NCBI RefSeq assembly: GCF_900537085.1 | Contig: NZ_UNRE01000002.1 | Location: 289-64,288, forward strand | Length of the DNA stretch: 64,000 bases | Direction: 5' to 3' | Source: Agarivorans sp. Alg241-V36 | Lineage (GTDB): Bacteria > Pseudomonadota > Gammaproteobacteria > Enterobacterales > Celerinatantimonadaceae | In this document: piece after piece, positions 23,685 through 57,808 of the stretch | Layout: every line of letters starts with the position of its first letter | How positions within the stretch are numbered: position 1 is the first letter of the stretch | Notes under the pieces: generated by a model | What the model was told of the DNA's origin: nothing | What the model saw: only the letters and a program-made list of their open reading frames with translations | The model's database searches: none | Position numbers and translations under genes: made by a program

Positions 23685-23731
23685 ATTTTGGTAAACCAAT
23701 TTGTGCATTCTACGATATAAAGGTTAACCAT
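23685..23731. promoter_or_regulatory. paired UxuR/ExuR-like operators, dehydrogenase/regulator control region
   Basis: Core TTGGTAAACCAA at 23688-23699 matches TTGGT-NN-ACCAA at all 10 defined bases, within ATTTTGGTAAACCAATTT. A second, weaker copy AAGGTTAACCAT is at 23720-23731, exactly 32 bp further. The first copy is 39 bp upstream of the aldehyde dehydrogenase start. They lie in the 342-bp divergent gap 23650-23991, which also holds a CRP-like site and a degenerate operator near the regulator gene. Confidence 0.8.
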
Positions 23732-23734
23732 TAA

Positions 23735-23750
23735 AGTGATAAGGCTCACA
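23735..23750. promoter_or_regulatory. CRP-like site
   Basis: AGTGA-N6-TCACA, one mismatch to the cAMP-CRP consensus TGTGA-N6-TCACA. It begins 4 bp beyond the weaker operator copy, in the gap between the aldehyde dehydrogenase and the GntR-type regulator. Consistent with catabolite control of agar use. Confidence 0.55.
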
Positions 23751-23936
23751 ACTTGCTATTGCTGACGAGGGAAATCAAGGTAGTAAATAAATATTTACTA
23801 AATTTCATATATTTATATTGTAAAATTCTATTAGTCCTACAATTTAGATCAAAATGAGACATCAGTAGTTATGGTTGACTACCGATAAGGCTTAAAAGGC
23901 GGTACTATTCTGGTTTCGGTCTAGAACTTACTTGAA

Positions 23937-23948
23937 TTGATTTACCAA
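23937..23948. promoter_or_regulatory. degenerate operator before the GntR-type gene
   Basis: TTGATTTACCAA differs from TTGGT-NN-ACCAA at one defined base. It lies 43 bp before the regulator start codon and suggests autoregulation. Confidence 0.6.
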
Positions 23949-23991
23949 AAGTTAGATAGTTTCTACATTTCCCCAAAGGTTGAATGACATT

Positions 23992-24771
23992 ATGGCTAAG
24001 ATGGATACCAAGCGACGCTACTATGATATTGGCGTGCAAATCGAGGAGTTGTTGTTTTCTGGCGTATTTAAAGCCGGAGAACGACTGCCATCAGAGCGAG
24101 AGCTAAGCGAGCGATTTGAAACTAGCCGAGCTACCATCCGTGAAGCCGTCATCATGTTGGAATTGAAAGGCTTGGTAGTTGTTCGCCAGGGCGCAGGAAT
24201 TTACTTCATTGATTCTCCTGAAAAAGTTAACAAACGCACCATTTTGCCTAAGAGTGATGTTGGGCCGTTTGAGCTATTACAGGCGCGCCAAATTATTGAA
24301 AGTAGTATTGCTGGCTTTGCCGCAACGCAAATTAAATTTAACGAGCTGCGAGAACTTAAAAAAGTACTGCAGCTGCAAGAAAGTGAAATAAACGGTGACA
24401 GTGAAAAATTTGAATCGCTAGATCAGCAATTTCACAGCTTGATTGCTGAATCGACGCAAAACCGTGTATTGATTAACCAGGCGGTTGATATGTGGAGTAC
24501 AGTGCGTACCACTAACCCGCTGTGGAATGAACTTAACCACCAGTTTCTGCATGAAGAGCGTTTACAGTCTATGTGGATTAATGACCACAAACGTATTTTA
24601 TTAGCCCTGCAAAAACGCTCTCCAGAAGATGCTAAGCAAGCGGTGTGGCAGCACATTGAAAATAGTAAGCAAGAGCTGTTAAAAATTGCTAGCTCCGATA
24701 ATAACGATACTGACTTAGACGACTACTTCTTTGCCATGGAATTTGACAGTAACTTTACCGAAAGCCATTAA
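23992..24771 (+). CDS. GntR/FadR-family regulator, UxuR/ExuR-like; candidate agar regulon repressor
   Basis: A 259-residue regulator with an N-terminal winged helix (about 10-75) bearing the GntR signature ERLPSERELSERFETSRATIREA and a C-terminal FCD-type effector domain of helices. UxuR and ExuR of this group bind AAATTGGTATACCAATTT-like palindromes and respond to hexuronate-pathway compounds. Very similar palindromes lie upstream of many agar-catabolism genes in this window, so this protein is the natural candidate to bind them; the effector could be KDG-like or anhydro-galactonate (inference). The frame also opens with TTG at 23980, but that is too near AAAGG (23975-23979); ATG 23992 is preferred. 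Confidence 0.88.
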   Translation: MAKMDTKRRYYDIGVQIEELLFSGVFKAGERLPSERELSERFETSRATIREAVIMLELKGLVVVRQGAGIYFIDSPEKVNKRTILPKSDVGPFELLQARQIIESSIAGFAATQIKFNELRELKKVLQLQESEINGDSEKFESLDQQFHSLIAESTQNRVLINQAVDMWSTVRTTNPLWNELNHQFLHEERLQSMWINDHKRILLALQKRSPEDAKQAVWQHIENSKQELLKIASSDNNDTDLDDYFFAMEFDSNFTESH

Positions 24772-24789
24772 GCATTAAGTCATTATTAG

Positions 24790-24822
24790 AAAGCCGCTAA
24801 ACCTGTATTTAGCGGCTTTTTT
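24790..24822. terminator. bidirectional terminator between regulator and MFS genes
   Basis: Perfect 12-bp stem AAAGCCGCTAAA / TTTAGCGGCTTT (24790-24801 with 24808-24819), loop of 6, with T-run on the right. It lies between convergent genes. Confidence 0.88.
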
Positions 24823-24837
24823 ATTAGCTGTTAATTG

Positions 24838-26454
24838 CTAAGCGTTAGGTGCATTGCCTTCAATCCCTGAATCGGTAGCTTCAGCTTTAGTCTTGCTGTT
24901 CGCTTTACCCACTAAGCTATCTTCTATCTCTTCAATGGTTTTATTTTTGGTCTCTGGCAATATTGGCCACAGTAGTAGCAGCCCTATTAAGCCAAACACA
25001 GAGTACATTAAGAAGGTATTTGCCGCCCCTAAGTTCGCCAGTTGCCATGGGAAAAACTGTTGAATCAGATAGCTAGCTATACTGGTTACCAAGGCAAACA
25101 TAGGAATAGCTACACTGCGCACCGAGTTTGGAAAAATTTCGGAAAACAGCACCCACATAATGGGTCCAATAGATATATGGAAAGCGGCAATAAAGGCTAG
25201 TATTCCTATTAATATGACGAGCGGGTTTACGCTGATGGAGGCTTCAATAATATGGCCTTCATTTAGCCTTAGCGTATCGGCATCATAGTTACTCGCTAGC
25301 ATTTCTTTAAAGCTTACATCGTCGGCGTATTGGCTGTTTAGCTGAGCCTTAAGTGGGGTTGTGTCAATGACGTCTTCTAGTTTTTCAATAGTCTGTTGGT
25401 TAATACTGTAGCTGGCATTGTTAAAGCCATACCAACAGGTTGCATGGCTTAATACCACGGCCATAAGCCCTAAAATAAGTAGCGGCTTTCTTCCCACCTT
25501 ATCAATAAAGAATACTGCCAGTACCGTGAACACCACACTGGTGATACCAATATAAATGGCCTGTTGAAAAGAGGCATTCAAGCCAAAACCGATCTGCTCA
25601 AATACTGTAGGGGCGTAGAACAAAATTGCGTTCATACCCGTTATGCCCTGTACAACCGCCATTAAAAAGCCAATGGCAAAAATGGTTTTCATCGGTGAGG
25701 AAAACAGCAGTTTAAGTTGGCTGGTTATGCTGCCGGCATTTTTATGCTCTTTGAGGTGTTGCTCTATTTCTATTTGTACTTCTTCCGCGCGTTGCTCGGG
25801 TAACAGTTTACGCAGTACTTGCTGGGCTTGATGTTGCTTATTCTTCATCAATAACCAACGGGGAGACTCTGGCACTCGGCATAGCAATATCACCCATAAT
25901 ACTGCGGGAATAAGCTCTGAGGCTAACATGGTGCGCCAGATAGTGTCCGGCGAAAACAACAACGAGCCTTCAGTGACTTGTAGCACTAGGTAATAGTTGA
26001 TGAAGTAAGCTGCCAACAAACCGATGACTATGTTGAATTGATTGGCCGATACCAACTTGCCACGTTGTTTAGCGGGCGCTATTTCACCGATATACATCGA
26101 CGCTAAAGACAAAGAACTAAAAGCTAGGCCTCCAATGAAGCGAGCAATGGTTAGCATCATAAAGCTCGTCGATAATGCAGATAATAGTGCCGAGAATACA
26201 TATAGGCTGGCAACAATAATCAGGGTGTTTTTACGGCCTAAGGCATCTGCTGTTTTCCCCGCCACTAATAACGCTAGAATTGCGCCTAAGCTTGGCGCAC
26301 CAACTACGGTGCCAATTTGTAGATCACTAAGTGAAAATTCTGCTGCTATAAATCGCACTGTACCGGAGATTATTGCTGCATCTAAGCCAAATACAAAGCC
26401 ACCAATAGCCACAATTAACGCATACTTGTAAGCATTCCATGTTTTTATGTCCAT
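24838..26454 (-). CDS. MFS sugar porter (sugar:proton symporter family)
   Basis: A 538-residue, 12-helix transporter of the sugar porter (XylE/GalP) family. Hallmarks are GFVFGLDAAIISG in helix 1, ADALGRKNTL after helix 2, the PESPRWLL motif after helix 6, GRKPLL after helix 8 and PETKNKTIEE after helix 12. A longer extracellular or periplasmic loop (about 345-405) before helix 9 or 10 is unusual. The operator triplet upstream (26500-26564) places it in the agar regulon, so galactose or 3,6-anhydro-L-galactose are plausible substrates (inference). AGAGGAACAAAG precedes the ATG. Confidence 0.9.
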   Translation of the reverse strand: MDIKTWNAYKYALIVAIGGFVFGLDAAIISGTVRFIAAEFSLSDLQIGTVVGAPSLGAILALLVAGKTADALGRKNTLIIVASLYVFSALLSALSTSFMMLTIARFIGGLAFSSLSLASMYIGEIAPAKQRGKLVSANQFNIVIGLLAAYFINYYLVLQVTEGSLLFSPDTIWRTMLASELIPAVLWVILLCRVPESPRWLLMKNKQHQAQQVLRKLLPEQRAEEVQIEIEQHLKEHKNAGSITSQLKLLFSSPMKTIFAIGFLMAVVQGITGMNAILFYAPTVFEQIGFGLNASFQQAIYIGITSVVFTVLAVFFIDKVGRKPLLILGLMAVVLSHATCWYGFNNASYSINQQTIEKLEDVIDTTPLKAQLNSQYADDVSFKEMLASNYDADTLRLNEGHIIEASISVNPLVILIGILAFIAAFHISIGPIMWVLFSEIFPNSVRSVAIPMFALVTSIASYLIQQFFPWQLANLGAANTFLMYSVFGLIGLLLLWPILPETKNKTIEEIEDSLVGKANSKTKAEATDSGIEGNAPNA

Positions 26455-26499
26455 CTTTGTTCCTCTAGAAGGTTATTTTCGCCTGCTATTTAAGCATGT

Positions 26500-26564
26500 C
26501 TGGATAACCAATTTGTCGATCAAGATCGATATTGGTTGATCTTTATTTTCTAAAGGTTAACAAA
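26500..26564. promoter_or_regulatory. three UxuR/ExuR-like operator copies before the MFS gene
   Basis: CTGGATAACCAA (26500-26511), TTGGTTGATCTT (26532-26543) and AAGGTTAACAAA (26553-26564), with start-to-start spacing 32 and 21 bp. Each copy is individually imperfect; the phasing and the repetition of the half-site support them as a group. They begin 46 bp upstream of the MFS start. Confidence 0.6.
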
Positions 26565-26628
26565 TATTGAGTTTTATTGATTTTTTTGTAGTTAGGTAGC
26601 AAATGCAAGCTAGCTGAGTTTTTAATGC

Positions 26629-26658
26629 AAAAAAAACACCGCGATAGTGCGGTGTTTT
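26629..26658 (-). terminator. terminator of the kinase-aldolase-cycloisomerase operon
   Basis: Perfect 10-bp stem AAAACACCGC / GCGGTGTTTT (26633-26642 with 26649-26658), loop of 6, followed in the - direction by T-run (complement of 26629-26636). It ends 15 bp after the cycloisomerase stop. Confidence 0.88.
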
Positions 26659-26673
26659 GGCTAAGAGTTACTT

Positions 26674-29436: not shown

Positions 29437-29454
29437 ATTTTGGTCAACCAAAAT
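29437..29454. promoter_or_regulatory. strong UxuR/ExuR-like operator before the kinase operon
   Basis: ATTTTGGTCAACCAAAAT: arms perfectly complementary, core TTGGTCAACCAA (29440-29451) fits TTGGT-NN-ACCAA at every defined base. It lies in the 342-bp divergent gap 29364-29705 between the kinase operon and the reductase operon. Confidence 0.82.
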
Positions 29455-29617
29455 GGATTTTCAGCTTGTTTCTGCAATAAATAGATTTTAGCTTGTGTTT
29501 TCTTTGCTTAAGTGTATGTTTTTATTGTATTTGTGGTAATTCTAACACGGTTTTTTATTGATCTAAGTCAGTATTGGACTATTGTTTATTGTATTCTTGT
29601 TAGCCATTTACGCTTAA

Positions 29618-29693
29618 TTGGTTTACCATTTTGTGATTGTAATCACGGCTATCGAACCGGTTTGTCGGTATAAATGCCGTATTGGTTGAACAA
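29618..29693. promoter_or_regulatory. two UxuR/ExuR-like operators before the reductase operon
   Basis: TTGGTTTACCAT (29618-29629) and TTGGTTGAACAA (29682-29693), each with one mismatch to TTGGT-NN-ACCAA, spaced 64 bp (about six turns). The second ends 12 bp before the start codon of the mannitol-dehydrogenase-family gene, a position suited to repression. Confidence 0.7.
29632..29647. promoter_or_regulatory. CRP-like site
   Basis: TGTGA-TTGTAA-TCACG, one mismatch to TGTGA-N6-TCACA, 2 bp after the first operator copy and 58 bp upstream of the start codon. Suggests cAMP-CRP control of the reductase operon. Confidence 0.58.
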
Positions 29694-29705
29694 TTGGATG
29701 GATGA

Positions 29706-31178
29706 ATGGCAGTAGGTAATCAAATAAGCCAGATTAAAGATCGGTTTAACGAAGTAACAAAGTACGACAGGGAACAGTTAAGCACTAAAATTGTTCACAT
29801 TGGGTTTGGCGCATTTCACCGTGGTCATCAAGCCGTATATAACGATTTAACCAACCAAGCTTCTGGCGAGTTGTGGGGTATTTGTGAAGTAAACATGTTT
29901 GGCAGCGAAGATCTGATTGCCAATTTGGTAAACCAAGACTGCTTGTTTTCGGTGGTTGAAAAGTCTAAAGACACCACCACTTCTCGCTTAGTGCGCACTG
30001 TTAGTGAAGCCATTCATACCCCTGCTACCGGTATTGCTGCTGCCATTGCCAAAATAGCAGAGCCGCAGGTGGCGATTGTTTCCTTAACTATTACAGAAAA
30101 AGGCTACTGTGTTGATCCTCAATCTGGTCAATTAGATGAAGCCAATGCGTTGATTCAACATGATTTAGCTAACCCTCAGCAGCCGCAATCAGCCTTAGGA
30201 TTAATTACCGAGGCCTTGCGAGTTCGTCGTGATAACGGCCTAGCTGCTATTAGCGTATTGTCTTGTGACAATATTCCCGAGAACGGCCACCTTACTAAAA
30301 ATGCACTACTGGCTTACGCAGCTAAGTTAGATAAAGAGCTAGCTGCTTGGATTAAGCAAAACGTTAGCTTCCCTAGCACTATGGTTGACCGCATTTGTCC
30401 TGCTATGACCCAAGAAGCATTTGCAGCCATTGAGGCAGAGGTTGGTTATGCCGACCCATGCGGCGTGGTTTGTGAAGACTTTCGGCAGTGGGTAATCGAA
30501 GACAACTTTGTCGCTGGTCGTCCAGACTGGGATTTAGCTGGTGCTATGTTTGTTGCCGACGTACTGCCCTATGAAGAAATGAAGTTGCGCATGCTAAATG
30601 GTAGCCACTCTTTCTTGGCTTATAACGGTGCGCTGGCTGGTTACGAATATATCTATCAGTGCATGCAAGACCCTACGTTTAAAGCCGCAACCCTAAAGCT
30701 TATGACGCAAGAGCAAGCTAAATCTTTAAGCCCTAGCCTTAATGTTGACTTGCCTGAGTACGCCAACTTACTGATAGCTCGCTTTAGCAACGCCAACGTT
30801 AAACATAAGACCGCTCAAATTGCGATGGACGGCTCGCAAAAGCTTCCTCAGCGTGCTGTAGATCCACTGCTTCATCTGCAAAAAGCAGGTTTAAAAGTGA
30901 CTTGTTTACCGGTTCTTATTGCCGGCTGGATGCACTCGGTGATTCGTGCGGTGAAACAGGGCGAGCAAATTGTTGACCCCTTAGCAGAGCAATTTAAACA
31001 GATAGTTGAAGGCAATGCAGAGCCGCTTGCTCAAGCCAAGCTGTTGCTTTCAATTAACAAAATTTTTGGAACATTAGGTAATGATAACGACAAGTTTAGC
31101 CAGCAGGTGCTATCTGCGTTTGTATCTATTGAAGAATATGGCATTGAGTCTGTGATTGACTCGATTGCAGTGAATTAG
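29706..31178 (+). CDS. mannitol dehydrogenase-family oxidoreductase (UxuB/UxaB-like)
   Basis: A 490-residue NAD-dependent polyol/aldonate dehydrogenase of the mannitol dehydrogenase family, close in length to E. coli UxuB (486). N-terminal VHIGFGAFHRGHQAVY holds the Rossmann motif; SCDNIPENG and MVDRICPAMT are family signatures, and KLRMLNGSHSFLAYNG carries the catalytic lysine region. The family interconverts fructuronate/mannonate, tagaturonate/altronate or ketoses/polyols. The next gene resembles L-galactonate 5-dehydrogenase, whose product is tagaturonate, so tagaturonate reduction is an attractive reading (inference). First gene of a + strand three-gene operon with 9- and 14-bp gaps. Confidence 0.87.
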   Translation: MAVGNQISQIKDRFNEVTKYDREQLSTKIVHIGFGAFHRGHQAVYNDLTNQASGELWGICEVNMFGSEDLIANLVNQDCLFSVVEKSKDTTTSRLVRTVSEAIHTPATGIAAAIAKIAEPQVAIVSLTITEKGYCVDPQSGQLDEANALIQHDLANPQQPQSALGLITEALRVRRDNGLAAISVLSCDNIPENGHLTKNALLAYAAKLDKELAAWIKQNVSFPSTMVDRICPAMTQEAFAAIEAEVGYADPCGVVCEDFRQWVIEDNFVAGRPDWDLAGAMFVADVLPYEEMKLRMLNGSHSFLAYNGALAGYEYIYQCMQDPTFKAATLKLMTQEQAKSLSPSLNVDLPEYANLLIARFSNANVKHKTAQIAMDGSQKLPQRAVDPLLHLQKAGLKVTCLPVLIAGWMHSVIRAVKQGEQIVDPLAEQFKQIVEGNAEPLAQAKLLLSINKIFGTLGNDNDKFSQQVLSAFVSIEEYGIESVIDSIAVN

Positions 31179-31187
31179 GAAATAATA

Positions 31188-32204
31188 ATGAAAACATTAG
31201 TTTGTAACGAACCTTTCTCGATTGAATATGTGGAACGTGAGAAGCCTTCATTTGCTGAAAACGAAGTATTACTTAAGGTAAAAGCAGTAGGGATCTGTGG
31301 CACCGACATTCACGCTTTTGCTGGTCGCCAGCCATTTTTTAGCTATCCGCGAGTACTTGGCCACGAAATTAGTGGTGTAGTTGAAGCCGTAGGCAGTGAG
31401 TGTGGCACTGCTAAAGTAGGCGAACGTTTCTCGGTGATTCCTTGTATTCCCTGTGGTGTTTGTTCTGCTTGTCAGGAAGGGAAAACCAACTGCTGTGAAA
31501 ATGTCTCTCTTTATGGTGTTCACCAAGATGGCGGCTTTACCGAGTATCTAAGTGTATTAGAAAGCAACTTAGTAAAATTGCCTGAAACCGTAAGTGATAG
31601 CCAAGGCGCGTTGATTGAGTGTTTTGCGATTAGTGCGCATGCAGTTCGCCGCGCCGAGGTTAAAGCTGGCCAACGTGTATTACAAGTAGGCGCTGGCCCA
31701 ATTGGTTTAGCAGCAGCTGCCATTGCAAAGGCAAATGGTGCAGAAGTGGTCGTAGCCGACGTAAGTGATGAGCGCCGTGCTCATGTAGAAAAAGCCTTAG
31801 GCATTAAAACCTTAAACCCTCTTGCGGAAAGCTATGTTGATGACCTAAAAGCAGCCTTTGGCGGCAACTTGGCATGCACCTTACTAGACGCCACTGGGAA
31901 CAAAGGCTCTATGAGCCGCAGCGTTGAGCTAATTCGCCATGGCGGCAAGATTGTATTCATCGGTTTGTACATCGGTGACCTGGTGCTAGACGACCCAACA
32001 TTCCATAAAAAAGAAACCACCTTATTAAGCAGTCGTAATGCAACTCGTGAAGATTTTGAGCGAGTGATCGAGTTGATGAGCAAAGGCGAAATCGACGAAA
32101 ACATCATGAAAAACCATGATTACGATTTTGACACCGTTGGTCTTTCATACCAACAAGATGTAGTAAACAACAAAACGCTTATTAAGGGCGTAATCAACTT
32201 TTAG
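31188..32204 (+). CDS. zinc alcohol dehydrogenase, LgoD-like (L-galactonate 5-dehydrogenase)
   Basis: A 338-residue medium-chain zinc dehydrogenase. Catalytic zinc ligands are Cys37, His59 and Glu60 (GICGTD, LGHE); structural zinc cysteines are 89, 92, 95 and 103; the Rossmann motif is VGAGPIGLAAAAIAKANGA. It strongly resembles, from memory, E. coli YjjN/LgoD, sharing AVGICGTDIHA, QPFFSYPRVLGHE, GVHQDGGFTEYLSV, FAISAHAVRRA and the KKETT-SRNAT stretch. LgoD oxidises L-galactonate to tagaturonate. Here it would serve L-galactose-derived acids from agar or porphyran (inference). AGGAAATAATA precedes the ATG. Confidence 0.85.
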   Translation: MKTLVCNEPFSIEYVEREKPSFAENEVLLKVKAVGICGTDIHAFAGRQPFFSYPRVLGHEISGVVEAVGSECGTAKVGERFSVIPCIPCGVCSACQEGKTNCCENVSLYGVHQDGGFTEYLSVLESNLVKLPETVSDSQGALIECFAISAHAVRRAEVKAGQRVLQVGAGPIGLAAAAIAKANGAEVVVADVSDERRAHVEKALGIKTLNPLAESYVDDLKAAFGGNLACTLLDATGNKGSMSRSVELIRHGGKIVFIGLYIGDLVLDDPTFHKKETTLLSSRNATREDFERVIELMSKGEIDENIMKNHDYDFDTVGLSYQQDVVNNKTLIKGVINF

Positions 32205-32218
32205 TCGCGCAGGTAAAT

Positions 32219-33226
32219 ATGACAACAGTACACGTAAAAGAAGCCGAGTTAAAAGCACTTGCGCTAAACAAATTAATTGCCGCTGGCCTAGATGAAGCGA
32301 CCGCCAACGAAGTAACCGAAGTATTGATTCATGCAGACGCGACTGGGGTTCATTCTCACGGCGTAATGCGAGTAGAGCACTATTGTGAGCGTCTTGCTAA
32401 AGGCGGCCTGAATGCCAAAGCAACTTTTTCAGTAGAGCAAGTATCACCATCAGTGGCGGTGTTGGACTCAGATGATGGCATGGGGCATTCCGCGCTAATT
32501 GCTGCTACCAAACACGGCATAAACCTAGCTTCTGATACCGGCTTAGGTTTTGTAAGTGTCAAGAATACTTCGCATTGTGGGGCGCTATCATACTTTATGG
32601 AGCAAGCCACAAATGCGGGTATGATTGCCATTGGTATGACTCAAACAGACACTTGTGTTGCCCCGCATGGCGGCGCTGCAAAGTTTTTGGGAACCAACCC
32701 AATTGCCTTTGGCTTCCCAGTTGAAGGTTCTACTCCTATGATCATCGACATGGCAACCAGTGCAACAGCTTACGGTAAGTTGCTGCATGCTAAAGAAACA
32801 GGTCAGTCGATTGGTAAAGGTTTAGCGATTGATGCAGAGGGCAATGAAACGACTGATCCGCATAAAGTGGCTAACTTGCTGCCGTTTGGTGGGCATAAAG
32901 GTTCGGGAATTGCACTAGCGATTGATGCTTTAACCGGCATGTTGATGGGCGCTAACTTTGGTAACCATATCGTAAAAATGTACGGTGATTACGAAAAAAT
33001 GCGCAAGCTAGCAAGCTTAGTGATAGTGATTGACCCGAAGAAGTTGGGTAATCCCATGTTTGCAGTAATGATGGCTGCAATGGTGAAAGAACTACACGAA
33101 GTTCCACCGGTACCGGGTGTTGATAAAGTGCTTGCGCCAAATGACCTTCAAGTGGCTTATCGAGCAGAGTGCGACCTTAATGGCATTCCAGTGGCGCAAG
33201 GTGTTTACGACTACCTAGTGAGTTAA
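32219..33226 (+). CDS. Ldh2-family malate/lactate-type dehydrogenase
   Basis: A 335-residue NAD(P)-dependent dehydrogenase of the malate/L-lactate/ureidoglycolate family, which has a fold distinct from classical Ldh. Conserved blocks are HADATGVHSHGVMRVEHY near residues 38-55, SVKNTSHCGALSYF, FLGTNPIAFGFP and LLPFGGHKGSGIALAID. Family substrates include L-malate, sulfolactate, ureidoglycolate and 2,3-diketo-L-gulonate. The role in this operon is unknown; oxidation or reduction of a 2-hydroxy or 2-keto acid from the sugar acid branch is likely. Last gene of the operon, 14 bp after the LgoD-like gene. Confidence 0.85.
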   Translation: MTTVHVKEAELKALALNKLIAAGLDEATANEVTEVLIHADATGVHSHGVMRVEHYCERLAKGGLNAKATFSVEQVSPSVAVLDSDDGMGHSALIAATKHGINLASDTGLGFVSVKNTSHCGALSYFMEQATNAGMIAIGMTQTDTCVAPHGGAAKFLGTNPIAFGFPVEGSTPMIIDMATSATAYGKLLHAKETGQSIGKGLAIDAEGNETTDPHKVANLLPFGGHKGSGIALAIDALTGMLMGANFGNHIVKMYGDYEKMRKLASLVIVIDPKKLGNPMFAVMMAAMVKELHEVPPVPGVDKVLAPNDLQVAYRAECDLNGIPVAQGVYDYLVS

Positions 33227-33469
33227 GTGTTTTAAAAAAGGTAGCAATATGGTGTCGCTCTGTGTTGCTACTAGCCTAGGTGCTCTCCTGCAATGGTTCC
33301 GCGGGCATCTAGGTTTCTCCTCTTTTTGACTGTGACTAGTCCCCTTAGTTACGGCGCCTTTCTTATTGGTATTACTTATTGTTTTTAATGACTTTTTTAT
33401 TGGCTTTGAGTTTTCCAAATATCGCTTTGGCTCACATTAGAACTTAAATTGGTGTGCTAATTTTGCAAT

Positions 33470-33523
33470 TTGGTTATCCAATATTGCTTAGTGGTTGTCC
33501 AAATATTGGTTTTGGTTATCCTT
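33470..33523. promoter_or_regulatory. triple operator array before the first GH50 gene
   Basis: Three copies of TGGTTRTCC in direct order: TTGGTTATCCAA (33470-33481), GTGGTTGTCCAA (33491-33502) and TTGGTTATCCTT (33512-33523), each exactly 21 bp after the last. They end 17 bp before the GH50 start codon. All differ from TTGGT-NN-ACCAA by T for A at position 8. The 314-bp gap 33227-33540 also has a weak stem GTAGCAA / TTGCTAC (33241-33247 with 33265-33271) and nothing else recognised. Confidence 0.7.
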
Positions 33524-33540
33524 TTAAGGGAGGAAATATT

Positions 33541-36474
33541 GTGTTGTTTAAAAAAAGCAACTTAGCAATCCTAGTATCAGTTGTATTAGCTGGGGTATCT
33601 ACATCAAACGTCATTGCAGATGACACTAAGCAGTCTAGTGAAAATGCAGCCACTTCGGGTGATATGACCAGCGCGGCAACGCCGCTTGATTTCACCGAAG
33701 CTGCAGTATTAGAAAAAATCACCCATAGTCATAGTCAGTTTTCGGTGCTTAAGAAAACTGCCCAGCAAAGTAAAGATGGCTTGAAGCTGAATTTTGATGC
33801 GATTTCAGAAGCTGAAGCGCAATCAAAATGGCCCAATGTGAAAATTCACTCTAAGGCAGGCCCTTGGGATTGGAATACTAAAGGCGGGCTAAAAGTCGCT
33901 TTAGAAAACCCAGGCAGCGAAGATGTTCGCATAGAAATGAAGGTAAGCGACAACATTGGCATTATGGGTTCTGCCGATAACCAAGTGGACTTACCCATCA
34001 TTTTGCCTGCCGGTAAAACCACTATTGTCGATTTTCTGTTTAACGGTACTCAAATGAATATTGAGGGTTACCGTGGTGGCAGTAAGTTAAATTTAAAAAG
34101 CATCGCCGAGATTCAGTTTTACTCTGTTGGGCCTATCGCTGCTCAAGAAGTGATTATTCGCGATCTTAACTTTATTGAACGCACTGGCGATTTTGTAAAA
34201 TCAGAAGCGCGTGAAGCGCAAGTGATTGCTGCACCCATTCCTACCATATTGTCTTTAGCTGATTTTAACGATGGTTCGAAAGGTATCGTGAGTAAAACTC
34301 ACGGTACAACTATTACTTCGGTAGACCGAGGTCAGGGCAAGGGCCTTAAAATTGACTACGCTGCCGACGCTTCCTATCCCAGTGTTACCTTTAGTGCAGA
34401 TAAACCTTGGAATTGGTCTGAGCATGGCGACTTCACTTTAGCCTTCGATGTTGAAAACACTAGCGAGGCTGGTGCTCAACTATTTATCCGCGTTGATGAT
34501 GACGTTAACGAAAAACAAGGTGGCAGTGCCAATGGTGTTATCCATAGTCGTACTGGTTATGTTCAGTTGCCAGCAGGCGAAGCGGGTACTTACTACTTTA
34601 CTTTAGAAGAGCTGGCTAAAACGCTTGATTCTGGGATGCGAGGCGAGCCGCCGAAGAAGTCTTATCAAGCGCAAGCGATTAACTTTGGCTGGGGTGAGCA
34701 GAAGCTAGATCTAAGCAATATTGTTAGCTTTCAGTTGTACATGCAGGATCTGCAAAGTGATGTGGGTCTAGTGATAGACAACATTCGTTTGGTGCCCAAT
34801 TTAAGTGCCGATACTAGCCGTTATGAAGGTTTGTTGGACGAATTTGGCCAGTTTGCCAATGAAGATTGGGCCGAGAAGGTTCATTCTGCCGAAGAGTTAC
34901 AATCACGTGCTAAAGCCGATGTGAAATTGATTGATGCTGCTAAGCAGATGGATGATAGAACCCCTTACGGTGGTTGGAAACAAGGGCCTAAATTAGAAGC
35001 CACTGGCTACTTTAGAACGGAGAAAGTAGACGGTAAATGGTCTTTAGTTGACCCAAGCGGTTATCTGTATTTTGCCACGGGTTTAGACAACATTCGGATG
35101 GACGATACCTACACCACCACCGGTGTTGGCTTTACTGATTTGGTATTGTCGGAAGATCTTAGCTTGCGTCCTAGCCAGATTTCTCAAGACAGCTATGTAG
35201 ATAATCAAGACTCTCGTTCGGTTGCTTCGGATCTGCGAAATAGCATGTTTACCTGGCTACCTAGCTATAAAGATGCACTCGCCCAGAATTACCAATACTC
35301 AACCATGATTCACACCGGTCCGCTTGAGCATGGTGAAGTGTATAGCTTCTACAGCGCTAACTTGCAGCGTAAATATGCGCCCGATTCTCGTGATGAAGCG
35401 ATTGCAGTTTGGCGCGACGTAACCTTAGCGCGAATGCTGGATTGGGGCTTTACCTCGTTAGGTAACTGGGCAGATCCAAGTTTCTATGGCAATCAAAAAG
35501 TAGCTTATGTGGCTAACGGCTGGATTGTGGGCGATCACCAACGGATTAACACCGGTAACGATTACTGGGGGCCAATGCACGACCCTTACGATCCAGAATT
35601 TGTTGAGTCGGTGAAAACTATGGCCATGCAAGTGGCTGCCGAGGTTGAACAAGACCCTTGGTGTATTGGCACCTTTGTAGATAACGAAATGAGCTGGGGT
35701 AATACCGAGTTTGACGCTAACCACTACGCCTTAGCCATTGCCGCTTTGCGTGCTGATGCAAAAGATAGCTTTGCTAAAGCTGCGTTTGTTGGCTTGTTAG
35801 AGGCGAAATATGCGCAAGATTTACAGGCACTAAACAAAGCCTGGGGCAGCGAGCTTAAATCTTGGGATGAACTGGCCAAGGGCTATGTTCACCAAGGTGA
35901 ACTCAACGAGGCGCTTAAAGCCGACTACAGTATGTTCTTGGCAGATCACTCAGACCGCTACTTTGCGATTGTTCAGCAACAGATGAAGCAGGTTATGCCT
36001 AATCATCTTTACTTGGGCGCTCGCTTTACCGAGTGGGGCATTACGCCGGAAGCCGCGAAAAGTGCTGCTCAGTATGTAGATGTAATGAGCTACAACCTGT
36101 ATGGCAATGATATGTCGAAAGGCGACTGGAGCCATTTAGCCGAGTTGGATATGCCAAGCATTATTGGTGAGTTTCACTTTGGGGCTACCGACAGCGGTAT
36201 GTTCCACCCGGGCTTAGTAGCGGCAGATACCCAACAAGGGCGCGCCGAGAAGTATGCCCATTACATGGACAGCGTTATTGCTAACCCATATTTCGTAGGT
36301 GCTCATTGGTTCCAATACCTAGACTCGCCAACTACTGGTCGAGCTTGGGATGGAGAAAACTATAACAATGGTTTTGTCACTGTGGCCGATTCACCCTACG
36401 AAAAACTGGTAGCCGGGGCCGCCGAAGTTAACCGTAAGTTGTACCCGCAACGCTACCCAGACCTAGTGAAATAA
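33541..36474 (+). CDS. exported GH50 beta-agarase (1)
   Basis: A 977-residue GH50 enzyme, expected to release neoagaro-oligosaccharides (typically neoagarobiose) from agarose. It has a signal peptide ending near NVIA-D, two related carbohydrate-binding-like jelly-roll segments (about 45-225 and 240-425), then a (beta/alpha)8 catalytic domain (about 460-970). Acid/base Glu716 (FVDNEMSWG) and nucleophile Glu877 (IIGEFHFG) are 161 residues apart, as in the structurally known Aga50D. The frame is open to 33454, but GTG 33541 is chosen because GGGAGG lies 7-12 bases before it and the signal peptide starts there. The operator triplet sits immediately upstream. Confidence 0.93.
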   Translation: MLFKKSNLAILVSVVLAGVSTSNVIADDTKQSSENAATSGDMTSAATPLDFTEAAVLEKITHSHSQFSVLKKTAQQSKDGLKLNFDAISEAEAQSKWPNVKIHSKAGPWDWNTKGGLKVALENPGSEDVRIEMKVSDNIGIMGSADNQVDLPIILPAGKTTIVDFLFNGTQMNIEGYRGGSKLNLKSIAEIQFYSVGPIAAQEVIIRDLNFIERTGDFVKSEAREAQVIAAPIPTILSLADFNDGSKGIVSKTHGTTITSVDRGQGKGLKIDYAADASYPSVTFSADKPWNWSEHGDFTLAFDVENTSEAGAQLFIRVDDDVNEKQGGSANGVIHSRTGYVQLPAGEAGTYYFTLEELAKTLDSGMRGEPPKKSYQAQAINFGWGEQKLDLSNIVSFQLYMQDLQSDVGLVIDNIRLVPNLSADTSRYEGLLDEFGQFANEDWAEKVHSAEELQSRAKADVKLIDAAKQMDDRTPYGGWKQGPKLEATGYFRTEKVDGKWSLVDPSGYLYFATGLDNIRMDDTYTTTGVGFTDLVLSEDLSLRPSQISQDSYVDNQDSRSVASDLRNSMFTWLPSYKDALAQNYQYSTMIHTGPLEHGEVYSFYSANLQRKYAPDSRDEAIAVWRDVTLARMLDWGFTSLGNWADPSFYGNQKVAYVANGWIVGDHQRINTGNDYWGPMHDPYDPEFVESVKTMAMQVAAEVEQDPWCIGTFVDNEMSWGNTEFDANHYALAIAALRADAKDSFAKAAFVGLLEAKYAQDLQALNKAWGSELKSWDELAKGYVHQGELNEALKADYSMFLADHSDRYFAIVQQQMKQVMPNHLYLGARFTEWGITPEAAKSAAQYVDVMSYNLYGNDMSKGDWSHLAELDMPSIIGEFHFGATDSGMFHPGLVAADTQQGRAEKYAHYMDSVIANPYFVGAHWFQYLDSPTTGRAWDGENYNNGFVTVADSPYEKLVAGAAEVNRKLYPQRYPDLVK

Positions 36475-36562: not shown

Positions 36563-37540
36563 ATGCCCACTATTATTGATGTCGCAAAAAAAGCTGGCGT
36601 GTCTGTGGCCACAGTATCGCGAATAATTAATCAAACTACTTTTGTTAGTGAGTCTAAAGTAGAAAAAGTACAACAAGCGATTAAGGCACTTAACTTTACG
36701 CCTAACTACCATGCGCAAAACCTAACTAACAATCCTAAGATTGGCCCTGCAATGATTGTGCAGTCGATCCAAGACCCCTTAACCGCGACCTTGCTCAAAG
36801 AACTGTCGGCACATGCCTCGGCTAATTCGATGCCGCTGCACTTAGTGTCGGGGGCCCACTCCGAACAACAAGAAATAGAGATGTTAGAGAACTACCTAAG
36901 CTTGGGGGTGCAATCTTTATATTTTGAAAGTGTGTATATGAAAGAGGAGCGTTTGGCCGAGTTTGTTCGTTTGCATCCTGGTTTATTGGTGGCGAAACGC
37001 TATTTGCCAGCATATCCCAAGCAGTGTTTGCATTTAGATCTCGTGGCAAGCCTTTGGCTAGCAGTAAAACTACTGGTAGAGCGAGGCCATAAGCAACTAA
37101 GTTTAATGTGCGAGGCGCAGCAGTTTCAAGCTATTGAGCAAAGCCTAAGCCACATTGATAGCCCTTTTAAGCAAGCCAATATTAGCCTGAGTCGCTTATC
37201 CCATGATCCTAACGATTGCTTGAACCGCGATATTGTATGTTCTAAAGCCTCGGCCTTTGTGTGTTTGTCGGCGCGGCTCAGTTGGCCGGTGTGGCAGCAG
37301 CTAAAAGATCAGCTAGGTGCGAGTAAGCAGTTTGAGTTTATTGGTGCCTCTAATAACGCTGCTGATAGTAAAGCTAGCTATAGCACGCTTTATTATCCGG
37401 TTCAGGCAATGGCTCAGCAAGCACTTGGCTTTTTAAGTGCTTCACAGCAAGATGTTAGCAAAGTATTTATTGCCCAATTACAAGAGCGCTATAGTGAGCA
37501 AGAACTCTGCTATTTACAGGACTTAGGCGCGGCAGGTTAA
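36563..37540 (+). CDS. LacI-family regulator
   Basis: A 325-residue regulator with the LacI helix-turn-helix (IIDVAKKAGVSVATVSRIIN, residues 4-23) and a periplasmic-binding-protein-like effector domain that is more diverged than usual, lacking the standard VGFDD segment (here FIGASNNAADS). AAGGAAACAT precedes the ATG. It lies between a GH50 gene and the convergent GH2 gene and is bracketed by terminators, so it forms a single-gene unit. It may tune the GH2 or GH50 genes, but no LacI-type palindrome comparable to TGTAATCG was found near them. Confidence 0.88.
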   Translation: MPTIIDVAKKAGVSVATVSRIINQTTFVSESKVEKVQQAIKALNFTPNYHAQNLTNNPKIGPAMIVQSIQDPLTATLLKELSAHASANSMPLHLVSGAHSEQQEIEMLENYLSLGVQSLYFESVYMKEERLAEFVRLHPGLLVAKRYLPAYPKQCLHLDLVASLWLAVKLLVERGHKQLSLMCEAQQFQAIEQSLSHIDSPFKQANISLSRLSHDPNDCLNRDIVCSKASAFVCLSARLSWPVWQQLKDQLGASKQFEFIGASNNAADSKASYSTLYYPVQAMAQQALGFLSASQQDVSKVFIAQLQERYSEQELCYLQDLGAAG

Positions 37541-41224: not shown

Positions 41225-41275
41225 ATCTACCTCTATTTGTCGAAAAACTAAAGTGTTCAATAACTACTGGCTACA

Positions 41276-41308
41276 AAGGTAAACCAATTTGGCTTAATGG
41301 TACATTAA
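41276..41308. promoter_or_regulatory. UxuR/ExuR-like operators before GH117
   Basis: AAGGTAAACCAA (41276-41287; two mismatches, both at the left end) and a weak half-site ATGGTACATTAA (41297-41308) 21 bp further. A weak CRP-like sequence AGTGA-N6-ACACA lies at 41342-41357. The rest of the 439-bp gap up to 41481 shows nothing definite. Confidence 0.5.
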
Positions 41309-41481: not shown

Positions 41482-41619
41482 CTCATCAACCAATTGCCTG
41501 GGTGGACTAGCATTTTGCCAACCAATAGCCGTATTTATGCCGAAATGTTAGCGGTGTCACTTTAAATTGGTTAATCATTATGTACGATAAAGCCTGTTAT
41601 TTAGATATTGGTTTACCAG
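41482..41619. promoter_or_regulatory. cluster of UxuR/ExuR-like operators before the LacY-type permease
   Basis: TTGGTTTACCAG (41608-41619, one mismatch) and TTGGTTAATCAT (41567-41578, two mismatches), plus weaker TTTGCCAACCAA (41514-41525) and CTCATCAACCAA (41482-41493). Start-to-start spacings are 32, 53 and 41 bp, near 3, 5 and 4 helical turns. Confidence 0.6.
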
Positions 41620-41663
41620 TGTGCTAGGCATTGAGTAGCTATCGCAAAATTAATGGAGTAATC

Positions 41664-53735: not shown

Positions 53736-53874
53736 TCACTGCTCTCTTTACCCTCTAAATTTTCTATTCCCTTAGTGTTTTAGCGCTGTTTGACTACTTA
53801 TTTGGGCGATGTTTATTGCTGCCGGCTTTAAGCTTGCTGTGCAACACGAGGCATGGTTCACAAGTTTTGTAAAA

Positions 53875-53907
53875 TTGGTTGTCCAATTAGTCGCATTGGT
53901 TGACATT
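53875..53907. promoter_or_regulatory. paired UxuR/ExuR-like operators before GH50 (4)
   Basis: TTGGTTGTCCAA (53875-53886, inside AAATTGGTTGTCCAATTA) and TTGGTTGACATT (53896-53907), 21 bp apart. The first carries the same T-for-A change at position 8 as the sites before GH50 (1). They lie in the 402-bp gap 53678-54079, which otherwise holds only the terminator at its left end. Confidence 0.65.
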
Positions 53908-54079: not shown

Positions 54080-56353
54080 ATGGAAACGCGCTTAAGGGCT
54101 GACTCTGCTAAAACTATCTCTGAGCATGAGCAATCAATACTGATTTATGATTTTGCTGAAGGCATACCTAGTGCTTTTAGCTTTAGTAAAGTAATCGCCG
54201 AGCTAGTTAACAAGGGTAATGGTATTACTGCAGGCTCTCAGGCCTTAAAGCTAAAAACGCAGAGTAAAGAAAACTTCTATACTTCTATTTTTATTGAGCC
54301 CGAACAACCCTTCGATTGGAGTGCCTTACCTAACTTTTGCTTTGCCTTTGATGCCACTAACCTAGGACGTCGTTCTACTCAGATATTCATCAACATCTTC
54401 GATAAACAGGGCCAAATGCACAGCCGCAGTATTAACGTGGCGGGTGGTTCAACTAAAACGTATTTAAACGAGTTAAAGGGTGACTACTTAAAGGGCGGGC
54501 TTAACTATGAGTCCGGCTTTCGTTCAAACCCTGCGGCTTGGCATACGCCGTTTCACTACGCTACTTGGATGTGGGGTGAAATGAATATCGACCTAAGCGC
54601 AGTCGCTAAAATTGAGCTTAGTATTCACGGAACTTTAATTGATCATCAATTAGTATTAGACAACTTCAGGGTGATATTAACGCCTGATTGTAACCCAGAT
54701 TTTTTAAGAGGCTGCTTAGATAAATTTGGCCAGAACGCCTTGGTTGAGACGGCCGAAAAAGTTCATTCAGAAGAAGAGTTGCTGGCAGTTACCGCTAAAG
54801 AACTTAAAGCGTTGGAGCAGGGCGCTATGCCGCAACGCTCAAGATTTGGCGGTTATACCGGGGGGCCTAAACTAGCGGCCACCGGCTATTTCCGCGCCGA
54901 AAAAATTGATGGTAAATGGTCTTTGGTCGATCCAGAAGGGCACCCTTATTTCGCCACTGGTTTAGACATTATTCGCTTGGCTAATTCGTTTACGATCACT
55001 GGGATGGATTACGACCACGATAAAGTGGCGGCCCGCAGTGACGATGATGTAACGCCAGAAGATTCAAAAGAAAAGCTAGAGATTAGCCAAGACGCTTTTG
55101 ACTCAGCATTTGTTGCTAACCAAAAACGCCGCGACTTTTTTGAATGGCTGCCTAGCTACGATGACCCATTAGCCGAGCACTACAGTTACATGCGAGAGCT
55201 GTTTGAAGGCCCAGTGGAACGTGGTGAGATCTTTAGTTTTTACTCGGCTAACTTACAACGAAAATACGGTCAAAACGGCGCTGATTACATGGGCAAGTGG
55301 CGTGAAGTTACCATGGACCGCATGCTTAATTGGGGCTTTTCTTGCCTAGGTAACTGGACAGCGCCTGAGTTTTACTCCAATGAGAAAATTCCTTACTTTG
55401 CTAACGGTTGGATTATTGGCGATTTTAAAACGGTCACCAGTGGCGATGACTTTTGGGCACCACTACCAGACCCATTTGATCCAGTATTTAGAGAGCGGGC
55501 CGAAGCAACGGTAAGCCAAGTAAAAGCAGAGATGCAAGGTTCACCTTGGTGTGTAGGCATTTTCATTGATAATGAAAAAAGCTGGGGCCGCATGGGCACG
55601 GTTAATGGCCATTACGGCATTGCCATCCATACACTGGGGCGCAACGATAATGAAAGCCCGACTAAGGCGGTATTCACTCAAGCCCTCAAAGATAAATACG
55701 GCGATATTGATAAGCTAAACCAAACTTGGGGAAGCAATCTTGCCTCTTGGCAAGCAGTATCAGAAGGACTGAGTGAGCTGGAGCATAACGACGCACAGAT
55801 AAGTGATTACGCGATGTTACTTGAGCTTTATGCTAGCGAATACTTCAAAGTGGTGAATGAGTCACTAAAAGCTCAGCTACCTAACCATCTCTATTTAGGC
55901 GCGCGCTTTGCTGATTGGGGGTGTAACCCAGAGGTCGTAAGAGCTGCCGCTAAACACGTAGATGTGGTGAGCTATAACTACTACAAAGAAGGCCTGCATC
56001 CAGAACCTTGGAAGTTTTTGGCTGAAGTAGACATGCCTAGCATTATTGGTGAATTTCATATTGGCGTTAAAGAGGGCTTTTACCATGCAGGCCTGGTGAC
56101 AGCTAATGATCAAACTGAACGCGGAGAGATGTTTGAAGACTACCTAAATTCAGTTATCGATAACCCTTACTTTGTAGGCGCTCACTGGTTCCAATACATC
56201 GACTCACCCATTACTGGTCGCTCTTTTGATGGCGAGAACTATAACGTTGGCTTTGTGGGCATTACCGATGTGCCTTATCAGCCAATGGTTGACGCCGCTA
56301 AACGGGTGAACGGTGGTATGTATCAACGCCGCTTTAATAACGACAAGCAATAA
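54080..56353 (+). CDS. GH50 agarase without signal peptide (4), probably cytoplasmic
   Basis: A 757-residue GH50 enzyme with no signal peptide (METRLRADSAKTISE start, GAGGACACGTA upstream). It has a single carbohydrate-binding-like segment (about 20-205) instead of two, then the catalytic domain (about 235-750) with acid/base Glu499 (FIDNEKSWG) and nucleophile Glu658 (IIGEFHIG), 159 residues apart. The absence of an export signal suggests it trims imported neoagaro-oligosaccharides to neoagarobiose for GH117 (inference). Transcribed alone between a terminator and its own operator pair. Confidence 0.9.
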   Translation: METRLRADSAKTISEHEQSILIYDFAEGIPSAFSFSKVIAELVNKGNGITAGSQALKLKTQSKENFYTSIFIEPEQPFDWSALPNFCFAFDATNLGRRSTQIFINIFDKQGQMHSRSINVAGGSTKTYLNELKGDYLKGGLNYESGFRSNPAAWHTPFHYATWMWGEMNIDLSAVAKIELSIHGTLIDHQLVLDNFRVILTPDCNPDFLRGCLDKFGQNALVETAEKVHSEEELLAVTAKELKALEQGAMPQRSRFGGYTGGPKLAATGYFRAEKIDGKWSLVDPEGHPYFATGLDIIRLANSFTITGMDYDHDKVAARSDDDVTPEDSKEKLEISQDAFDSAFVANQKRRDFFEWLPSYDDPLAEHYSYMRELFEGPVERGEIFSFYSANLQRKYGQNGADYMGKWREVTMDRMLNWGFSCLGNWTAPEFYSNEKIPYFANGWIIGDFKTVTSGDDFWAPLPDPFDPVFRERAEATVSQVKAEMQGSPWCVGIFIDNEKSWGRMGTVNGHYGIAIHTLGRNDNESPTKAVFTQALKDKYGDIDKLNQTWGSNLASWQAVSEGLSELEHNDAQISDYAMLLELYASEYFKVVNESLKAQLPNHLYLGARFADWGCNPEVVRAAAKHVDVVSYNYYKEGLHPEPWKFLAEVDMPSIIGEFHIGVKEGFYHAGLVTANDQTERGEMFEDYLNSVIDNPYFVGAHWFQYIDSPITGRSFDGENYNVGFVGITDVPYQPMVDAAKRVNGGMYQRRFNNDKQ

Positions 56354-56373
56354 GTTCAGCCTAAACAATGACT

Positions 56374-56400
56374 AAAAAGGAGGCTTAAGCCTCCTTTTTT
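56374..56400. terminator. terminator after GH50 (4)
   Basis: Perfect palindrome AAAAAGGAGGCTT / AAGCCTCCTTTTT ending in a T-run, 21 bp after the stop codon; lies between convergent genes. Confidence 0.85.
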
Positions 56401-56476
56401 AATGCTCACTAAGCCTTGGGTGGAATGGTTGCTTTGAGGCTACCACCAATAGCGTTGCTAGCGAGTTGCTGCTGAA

Positions 56477-57343
56477 CTAGTTTTGCTCTGGCGTTTGAAC
56501 CTCAGGAGCTTGCCAGTGTTTTACCCGTTCCTGTTTAACACCCGATTGCCGCATTGCCTTCTCAATCAAACCTAAACGCGCCATCTTAGTTAAGCCTTGG
56601 TCAATAGCTTGGGCAATCTCCGCACCATAGGGATGCTTTTTAGACACCATAAAATGGCGACTTTGTTGAAACTTAATCTTGTAATTAGGTATGGGATAAA
56701 AGCTACCGTAGCTGTCGTGAATGGCAAGGTCAGGGTTATTAGGGAACTCTAAGAAAGCGATTTGTATTCGCTCCTTGCTTAGCATGCCAAGCAAGGACTG
56801 ATTGCGGTTAAGTGTATTGATGTTAGTAAACCCGCTTTGCTCCAATTGGGCAATGTCTTGATGCCAAGTTTTACCCACACTAATAGGCAATTCTTTAAGT
56901 TGCTCTAGGCTTAGCGGCTGAGTTAGTAAGGGAGAATTGCTGCTAACATAAAAGCCCTTCTCAAAGGTATTTGGGGCAATAATGGCTACCGACTTATAGG
57001 TACTGTCGTCAAAGTCGCTTTCCCAAATATCGGCTTGGTAAACGGCAACGTCACCTTGTTTCACTTCTCGTAGACTGCGCCCAGTATTGGGGGAGGCTTT
57101 AAATTCAATCGTAAAGTTTAAATCGCTGAAGCTGATCGCTTGCACTAACAGCAGCAGGCTAACTGTTGCTCGGTCGGAATATGGGGAGTGATAATCGTCA
57201 ATTGTGCCTAGGTTATTGCCTTTTAATTCAAGCAGTTGCTGGTAGTTTGAAATGGTACCTTGGTCGCCAATAATCGATACTTCAATGCTAGCCAGAGAAG
57301 AGAAACTAAATAAACACAAAATGCTGATTATCCACGCCTTCAC
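56477..57343 (-). CDS. periplasmic solute-binding family 3-like protein
   Basis: A 288-residue protein with a signal peptide (cleavage near LASI) and a type 2 periplasmic-binding fold: GKTWHQDIAQLEQSGF, NRNQSLLGMLSKERIQIAFLEF and the HPYGAEIAQAIDQGLTKM ending are typical of orphan SBP3-like proteins in gammaproteobacteria. No transporter genes adjoin it. It is of the same broad class as the protein at 50839-51690 but clearly different in sequence. Function and ligand unknown. Confidence 0.8.
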   Translation of the reverse strand: MKAWIISILCLFSFSSLASIEVSIIGDQGTISNYQQLLELKGNNLGTIDDYHSPYSDRATVSLLLLVQAISFSDLNFTIEFKASPNTGRSLREVKQGDVAVYQADIWESDFDDSTYKSVAIIAPNTFEKGFYVSSNSPLLTQPLSLEQLKELPISVGKTWHQDIAQLEQSGFTNINTLNRNQSLLGMLSKERIQIAFLEFPNNPDLAIHDSYGSFYPIPNYKIKFQQSRHFMVSKKHPYGAEIAQAIDQGLTKMARLGLIEKAMRQSGVKQERVKHWQAPEVQTPEQN

Positions 57344-57468
57344 TGCTGCTCCTTGTTCTGAATTTGCGACCTTGGTCTGCTTGGTTGCTACTTACTGTAG
57401 CGTAAGACCACAAACTAAAGTGTAGACCGCTTCACAATCGCTTGGTGGAGCAGCAAGTAGCTTTCATT

Positions 57469-57747
57469 TTAAGCTTTGTTTTTGTTTGATTTAAGTCGCT
57501 GATGAATAGTTAAAATTAACACCCATGAGGCTAGGATGAAGGTAATGACGTTGGCCAAAAATACTGAAAGGTCACGGATTAGAAAGCCATACACCATCCA
57601 CAGGCCCACCCCGGTGGTTAAAATGGAGTACATGCTTAAAGAAATACCGGCCACATTTTTAGTTTTAATAATGTGGATCACCTGTGGCACAAATGACAAA
57701 GTGGTGCAGCTTGCTGCAATTAATCCTAAAACCGTAAGGGCTGTCAT
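57469..57747 (-). CDS. SemiSWEET sugar transporter
   Basis: A 92-residue protein with three hydrophobic helices (about 3-25, 36-57, 60-82) and the SWEET/PQ-loop signature SFVPQVIHIIKTKN (Pro21-Gln22), the layout of bacterial SemiSWEETs, which dimerise to form a sugar facilitator. ATG 57747 is preferred to ATG 57759 because GGAAG lies 6-10 bases upstream of it. A full-match operator of the agar regulon stands 18 bp upstream, so it probably carries an agar-derived sugar (galactose, 3,6-anhydro-L-galactose or a disaccharide); that is inference. Confidence 0.9.
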   Translation of the reverse strand: MTALTVLGLIAASCTTLSFVPQVIHIIKTKNVAGISLSMYSILTTGVGLWMVYGFLIRDLSVFLANVITFILASWVLILTIHQRLKSNKNKA

Positions 57748-57764
57748 ATAATCTTCCATTCTTA

Positions 57765-57808
57765 TTGGTAAACCAATTTTGAAGAATTATACATTTTTGG
57801 TTAACAGT
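57765..57808. promoter_or_regulatory. paired UxuR/ExuR-like operators before SemiSWEET
   Basis: TTGGTAAACCAA (57765-57776) matches TTGGT-NN-ACCAA fully, inside ATTGGTAAACCAATTTT. A weaker TTGGTTAACAGT (57797-57808) lies 32 bp further, the same arrangement as at 23688/23720. Confidence 0.8.

Follow-up and report, generated by a model that had tools for sequence, protein, structure and literature searches.

Helically phased operators and a candidate UxuR-like repressor for a proposed agar regulon in Agarivorans sp. Alg241-V36

Which regulator, acting through which DNA signals, could hold together the agar genes of Agarivorans sp. Alg241-V36? The question is raised by a stretch of 64,000 nucleotides (contig NZ_UNRE01000002.1, positions 289 to 64,288; hereafter the window) in which the agar genes lie at about 20-58 kb. 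The window represents 1.4% of a 4.7-Mb genome in 14 contigs, and Agarivorans sp. Toyoura001 is the closest named relative found, as judged by the regulator described below (97% identity). An initial annotation had proposed that copies of the palindrome TTGGT-NN-ACCAA, spaced by whole helical turns, place the region under one GntR/FadR-family protein encoded at 23992-24771. The results presented here are, as a whole, probably best explained by a GntR/FCD protein that represses a single regulon for the use of agar and 3,6-anhydro-L-galactose (AHG) through phased operators together with CRP.

Copies of the palindrome with at most one mismatch number 17 in the window, compared with a mean of 2.75 and a maximum of 9 in 100 shuffles. 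An 18-bp position weight matrix (PWM) was seeded with eight of the sites named in the initial annotation, and sites scoring at least 13 were found 11 times in the 7,603 noncoding bp of the window versus once in its 56,380 coding bp. All nine full or one-mismatch sites that had been reported were recovered at their positions. The three full matches among them are present, but the window contains five perfect copies; the two that had been omitted, at 29925 and 40808, are both within coding frames. One-mismatch copies at 13778, 26292, 26890, 41025, 58206 and 63497 are within coding frames as well. The copy at 29925 (score 16.3) was rejected as an operator and is taken as a chance match, the sister loci L064-L066 listing no coding site of at least 13 in that gene; the copy at 40808 scores 9.7 and was also taken as chance. 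The weaker companions separated into two groups. Those at 23720, 26500, 26532, 26553, 33491, 33512, 41567 and 29682 hold, with window ranks between 8th and 27th, whereas those at 41482, 41514, 53896 and 57797 rank 45th, 36th, 124th and 147th and were dropped on matrix score. The operators are given below by their 18-bp matrix sites, which begin three positions before the palindrome, with PWM scores in brackets; the genome scan is described further on.

23685..23702, operator in the divergent promoter of the aldehyde dehydrogenase and regulator genes (23.5, rank 1 in the window; genome-scan hit)
23717..23734, companion operator 32 bp from 23685 (12.8)
23934..23951, operator near the regulator start (13.0), also in L021 and L064-L066
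26497..26567, three operators (26497, 26529, 26550; spacings 32 and 21) upstream of the major facilitator superfamily (MFS) transporter gene 24838-26454 (13.5, 11.4, 9.8)
29437..29454, operator upstream of the 2-keto-3-deoxygluconate (KDG) kinase operon, overlapping a -35-like hexamer (21.7; genome-scan hit)
29615..29632, operator upstream of the UxuB-like reductase operon 29706-33226 (20.2; genome-scan hit)
29679..29696, operator 64 bp from 29615, adjoining the start codon (15.8)
33446..33526, four-site array in 21-bp steps (33446, 33467, 33488, 33509; 11.1, 22.1, 12.7, 9.5)
41273..41290, operator upstream of the GH43/GH117-like gene 40142-41260 (14.7)
41564..41622, operators 41564 and 41605, spaced by 41 bp and both upstream of the LacY-LamB-agarase operon (17.7, 19.7; genome-scan hits)
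53872..53889, operator upstream of the agarase gene 54080-56353 (20.8; genome-scan hit)
57762..57779, operator of the SemiSWEET gene 57469-57759, minus strand (23.3; top hit of the genome scan)

The array at 33446-33526 is partly within a mechanically called open reading frame (33454-36474). Comparison with L021, where the array is kept, puts the likely start of the GH50-type agarase at GTG 33541, so the array is read as lying upstream of the gene. A pair of operators 31-33 bp apart, as at 23685/23717, recurs in L021, L067, L073, L025 and L076. The SemiSWEET operator stands just downstream of an 11/12 match to a sigma-70 promoter; this position, and that of 29437 over a -35-like hexamer, would suit a repressor. 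The SemiSWEET gene and its operator are conserved in G001, G004 and G005. The gene itself codes for a small sugar transporter (NF037968, 98.7 bits; cut-off 80).

Spacings were measured between intergenic sites scoring at least 9, with one partner at 13 or more, located 15-110 bp apart. By this fixed rule the window contains spacings of 21, 21, 32, 32, 41, 53 and 64 bp (R = 0.94 at 10.5 bp, p = 0.00015). Since the seed sites had been picked in the initial annotation, the fair test of phasing is the one carried out in relatives. At 15 loci from other species, 30 spacings, mostly near 21, 32, 42, 53 and 64 bp, gave R = 0.60 and p = 5e-5, and p ranged from <5e-5 to 0.00045 over four threshold settings. 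This set includes Agarivorans G003, Aliagarivorans, Vibrio (with the related loci L024 and L030 both in) and further genera. Left out of it are L023, L026, L029, L032, L075, L076 and L081, which are near-identical or from the same species, L021 and L064-L066, which are Agarivorans loci resembling the window, L069-L072 of the UxuR/ExuR type, L033 (broken frames) and L034 (short match). The strain's own genome outside the window added spacings of 20, 21, 32, 32, 44, 64 and 76 bp (n = 7, R = 0.80, p = 0.006). When the window, the relatives and the own-genome stretches were pooled, with orthologous promoters collapsed and neighbouring sites only, 25 spacings gave R = 0.62 and p = 8e-5; the 21 of them that do not exceed 70 bp gave R = 0.77 and a best period of 10.65 bp. 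Close site pairs number 44, while none of 200 permuted matrices produced more than 2 in identical noncoding DNA. At the MFS promoter the spacing is 32 bp in the window and in L021 and 53 bp in L065, the phase being kept though the spacing differs. The helical phasing is real, as had been proposed, with the window, the relatives and the collapsed promoters in agreement, and the operators are spaced by whole helical turns, as would be those of an AraR-like in-phase cooperative repressor. Additional half-boxes, described at 7-12 nt from the centre of the site (PMC4494728, available part), were considered as a source of the spacings and set aside, as they do not fit centres 20-22 bp apart.

The protein to which the operators were attributed is the following.

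23980..24771, plus strand, likely start 23992, GntR/FCD regulator and proposed repressor of the regulon (Pfam, NCBIfam and tree)

Its matches to PF00392 (GntR, 67 bits) and PF07729 (FCD, 76 bits) are both above cut-off and place it in the FadR/FCD subfamily of GntR proteins. The NCBIfam models make it an orthologue of neither UxuR (212.6 bits against an equivalog cut-off of 442) nor ExuR (191 bits against 396, with an operator spacer of 2 instead of 3 nt), and it shares 42% identity with E. coli UxuR and 36% with ExuR. In a 31-row tree the regulator clade is outside UxuR plus ExuR on a 100/100 branch of length 1.55, with L068 as one intermediate row; by this placement the clade is the sister of UxuR/ExuR. 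The regulator retains Asp and His where FCD proteins bind their metal. A single-sequence structure prediction had a mean predicted local distance difference test score of 49.6 and was unused, and a search of solved structures returned distant GntR relatives only (best E 3.5e-17). The 2-nt operator spacer is that of UxuR, and the E. coli uxuA sites fit the matrix; the ExuR-like part of the original label had to be abandoned, as ExuR has a spacer of 3 nt (PMC4494728, available part). The matrix found no site of at least 7 in the E. coli uxaC-exuT interval and one of 12.6 upstream of exuR.

Within the genome, UxuR has a single close relative, the 23992-24771 protein; the other matches share 30% identity, or 36% over 73 residues. 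Operators precede the gene for this protein in several species. These two observations make it the best candidate, as first suggested, and its candidacy also fits a same-genus genome that lacks the regulator and has few profile hits (G006, below). Of 394 genomes in the order, 18 have matches to the regulator at E<=1e-70, its own genome among them. Some Vibrio, Aliagarivorans and another genus have the regulator in duplicate, the copies lying about 7 to 30 kb from each other (L022/L031, L025/L029, L078:6310-7077 and 13399-14172).

CRP-like sites, matches to TGTGA-N6-TCACA, stand beside several operators and had gone unremarked in the initial annotation.

23735..23750, CRP-like site centred 17 bp from operator 23717 and 49 bp from operator 23685 (one mismatch)
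29632..29647, CRP-like site flanked by operators 29615 (offset 16 bp) and 29679 (offset 48 bp) (one mismatch)
41546..41561, CRP-like site 19 bp from operator 41564 and 60 bp from operator 41605 (two mismatches)

The 17/49 offsets are also found in L021, L067 and L076, and mirrored in L073; the 16/48 offsets recur in L021 and L064-L066, and at two mismatches in L074; at the LacY operon, offsets of 19/61 are seen in L073 and L076. If two mismatches are allowed, a CRP-like site is found 15-19 bp from an operator in 16 of 55 operator promoters (8 classes), compared with 6 (4 classes) for the best of 29 permuted palindromes; at one mismatch there are 5 promoters (2 classes) versus 0. Counted as pairs, this band holds 17 against at most 7 for the permuted palindromes. 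The offsets between CRP-like sites and operators show phasing of their own (n = 51, R = 0.41, p = 0.00018). The genome encodes a CRP that is 89% identical to that of E. coli. At UxuR loci, E. coli uxuA included, CRP-like sites are located 17-21 bp from operators, the offsets being unphased overall (n = 17, p = 0.48).

How far does the operator extend beyond the window? A plain 12-mer scan of the genome produced 454 matches per strand versus 346 for a reversed control. The 12-mer is therefore too short to define a regulon, and a 22-position profile, trained in both orientations on 38 of the 51 listed relative sites scoring at least 13, was used instead. At E<=10 it identified 19 sites among the 150 of 1,410 first-look candidates that were scored. 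Eight are in the window, and the other 11 form six loci.

CBM6/porphyranase-type enzyme, four profile sites beside the gene
GH16-lectin enzyme followed by an aldehyde dehydrogenase, profile-site locus
Methyl-accepting chemotaxis protein (MCP), SMP-30 protein and ASPIC/FG-GAP protein, three separate profile-site loci
Beta-helix protein near a chondroitinase-B-like gene, profile-site locus

With 8 of 19 sites in 1.4% of the genome, the motif is not equally common upstream of unrelated genes, and several of the sites beyond the window stand at algal-polysaccharide genes. The operators of the porphyranase-type gene recur in G001 and G004. The ASPIC/UnbV FG-GAP protein is large and has operators upstream (L098:6671-9874); a G003 protein, L114:1655-3018, is 35% identical and likewise preceded by operators. 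Among 12 genomes of the family, five that carry the regulator have 26-46 profile rows. In the same-genus G006 the regulator has no match at E<=1e-40, and neither has the agarase at 54080; this genome has 13 rows, and G011, whose homologue groups with ExuR, has 12; at four loci read from these two genomes the profile hit was within a coding frame each time. Operators beside regulator orthologues are conserved in Vibrio, Aliagarivorans and other genera.

The genes of the region fit agar and AHG use. The agar region codes for four agarases with an Agarase_CBM domain, which we take to be GH50 enzymes, a GH43/GH117-like enzyme, a GH2 enzyme, a LacY-like symporter and a LamB porin. Genes fitting AHG breakdown code for an aldehyde dehydrogenase, a mandelate-racemase-family enzyme, a KDG kinase, a 2-keto-3-deoxy-6-phosphogluconate (KDPG) aldolase and an Ldh_2 dehydrogenase. 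The reductase of the 29706-33226 operon best fits fructuronate reductase (UxuB-like, 532 bits; subfamily cut-off 603), and the nearest model to a zinc dehydrogenase of the region is PRK10083, presumably LgoD. AHG is oxidised to 3,6-anhydro-L-galactonate (AHGA), then cycloisomerised to 2-keto-3-deoxy-L-galactonate (L-KDGal) (PMC9147760, available part). The UxuB-like and LgoD-like enzymes could turn L-KDGal into KDG, by C5 epimerisation through oxidation and reduction, so that enzyme and regulator may both derive from hexuronate use. A LacI-type regulator gene (36563-37540) sits between the agar genes; Pfam recognizes only the helix-turn-helix of its product, and GalR-type models match the first two thirds. 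In L079 and L080 the regulator gene is beside UxuB-like, LgoD-like and Ldh_2 genes, and no agarase relative is within the stretch; the operator is strong in L079 and weak in L080. The regulator relatives of these two and of L033 are enterobacterial and adjoin AHG-pathway-like genes, no agarase being present in the stretch; frames are interrupted in the Leclercia record.

The regulator is most likely a repressor, as UxuR is in E. coli (PMC10016265, available part). Without inducer, its dimers would occupy operators at or beside promoters, next to CRP sites, and adjacent operators would share a helical face, so that bound dimers could reinforce one another. One of the sugar acids formed as AHG is broken down (AHGA, L-KDGal or KDG) would free the regulator from the operators, and CRP would then activate the promoters. 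The operators, their phasing and conservation, their concentration at agar genes, the CRP-like spacing and the phylogeny are established at the level of sequence. Binding of the operators by the 23992-24771 protein, repression, cooperativity, CRP action and the effector are what we infer. Several points weigh against this account. Relatives also have spacings of 26, 76 and 82 bp, which are off phase, and weak sites only are near some orthologues (L027/L075, L022, L080). Sigma-70-like matches in seven promoter regions were overall no commoner than in shuffles, with one each in four regions and zero in three. The genome scan scored only the 150 candidates mentioned, and the matrix that picked the relatives' training sites was itself seeded from the window.

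CRP-like sites at fixed distances provide an alternative reason for the operator spacings. In composite elements, each operator would be fixed relative to a CRP site, the spacing between operators would be a by-product and not a sign of dimer-dimer cooperativity, and the repressor would contact or block CRP in the manner of CytR. The offsets of 16-19 and 48-61 bp that recur in several genera, the excess of pairs at 15-19 bp and the phased offsets favour this explanation, but 39 of the 55 promoters have no CRP-like site (up to two mismatches) at 15-19 bp, and the 21-bp array at 33446-33526 has none among those listed; we regard it as possible, if on the doubtful side. It is unlikely that strong single sites act alone, with the weak companions as relics of site turnover and a phasing of no mechanical meaning. 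Four of the companions first listed indeed score no higher than dozens of window positions, but the 44 close pairs and the phase kept at the MFS promoter despite a change of spacing argue against relics. That the operators belong to another protein, such as the LacI-type product of 36563-37540, whose gene is within the agar region, or a distant GntR protein encoded elsewhere, appears very improbable, since the motif is of the known FadR/UxuR type (PMC4494728, available part), no other close UxuR relative is encoded in the genome and operators flank orthologues of the window protein in other genera. The phased operators of the GntR/FCD repressor may have a wider history, which we propose tentatively and with somewhat less than even confidence: a control module consisting of a UxuR-like repressor, a UxuB-like reductase and a promoter grammar of CRP and phased operators would have moved from hexuronate use to dispersed algal-galactan genes, with repressor dimers and CRP joined in a single composite complex that kept its geometry across genera.

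These findings give agar use in marine gammaproteobacteria a candidate regulator with a candidate regulon, and suggest how regulator and reductase passed jointly from one sugar-acid pathway to another. The operator is a rule for locating further agar genes, such as those of the SemiSWEET transporter, the MCP and the ASPIC/FG-GAP protein, and the arrays are natural material to probe helical-phase action in an FCD-type GntR repressor. Among the matches listed in the open-access literature, with subscription papers mostly outside, there was neither the regulator clade nor its agar/AHG regulon, nor were there short multi-turn arrays. The initial claim of novelty is weakened, the principle of paired, in-phase operators being known. 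Also known are extra half-boxes and double sites in FadR-type divergons, the latter read as cooperative or operon-specific (PMC4494728); the parts of that study examined contain neither a helical-phase statement nor an agar regulon.

Among the closest known systems is the UxuR regulon of E. coli and relatives, which shares the TTGGT-NN-ACCAA operator with its 2-nt spacer (PMC4494728, available part), paired operators, CRP-like neighbours at 17-21 bp and a UxuB-like reductase. The statement that E. coli UxuR/ExuR bind single sites is contradicted at the sequence level by two operators 106 bp apart at gntP-uxuA and, at uxuR, by a weak site that accompanies a strong one at 20 bp. UxuR relatives have pairs at 102-106 and 34 bp (UxuR loci including E. 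coli, n = 15, R = 0.54, p = 0.012, many orthologous). The present system differs in its separate clade (42% identity), its agar/AHG targets and its short arrays of 2-6 turns, UxuR pairs being mostly at 102-106 and 34 bp. NanR, the sialic acid GntR regulator of E. coli, binds closely spaced boxes cooperatively as several dimers, using direct GGTATA repeats and a 32-residue N-terminal extension (PMC8012715, available part), whereas here the sites are palindromes and the N-terminus is short. The short stretch before the DNA-binding domain leaves that extension without a counterpart. E. coli CytR, a LacI-type protein, relies on contact with CRP, its sites being interleaved with CRP sites at fixed spacing; here 16 of 55 promoters have a CRP-like site at 15-19 bp, and many operators are strong alone. 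AraR of Bacillus subtilis represses cooperatively from two properly spaced, in-phase operators (PMC4218819, available part). It is alike in its GntR-type DNA-binding domain and in-phase operators and unlike in host and operator, the cooperativity proposed here being putative. The effector domain of AraR also differs from that of the FCD regulator. We regard the system described here as a new putative regulon and a new variation on a known operator logic.

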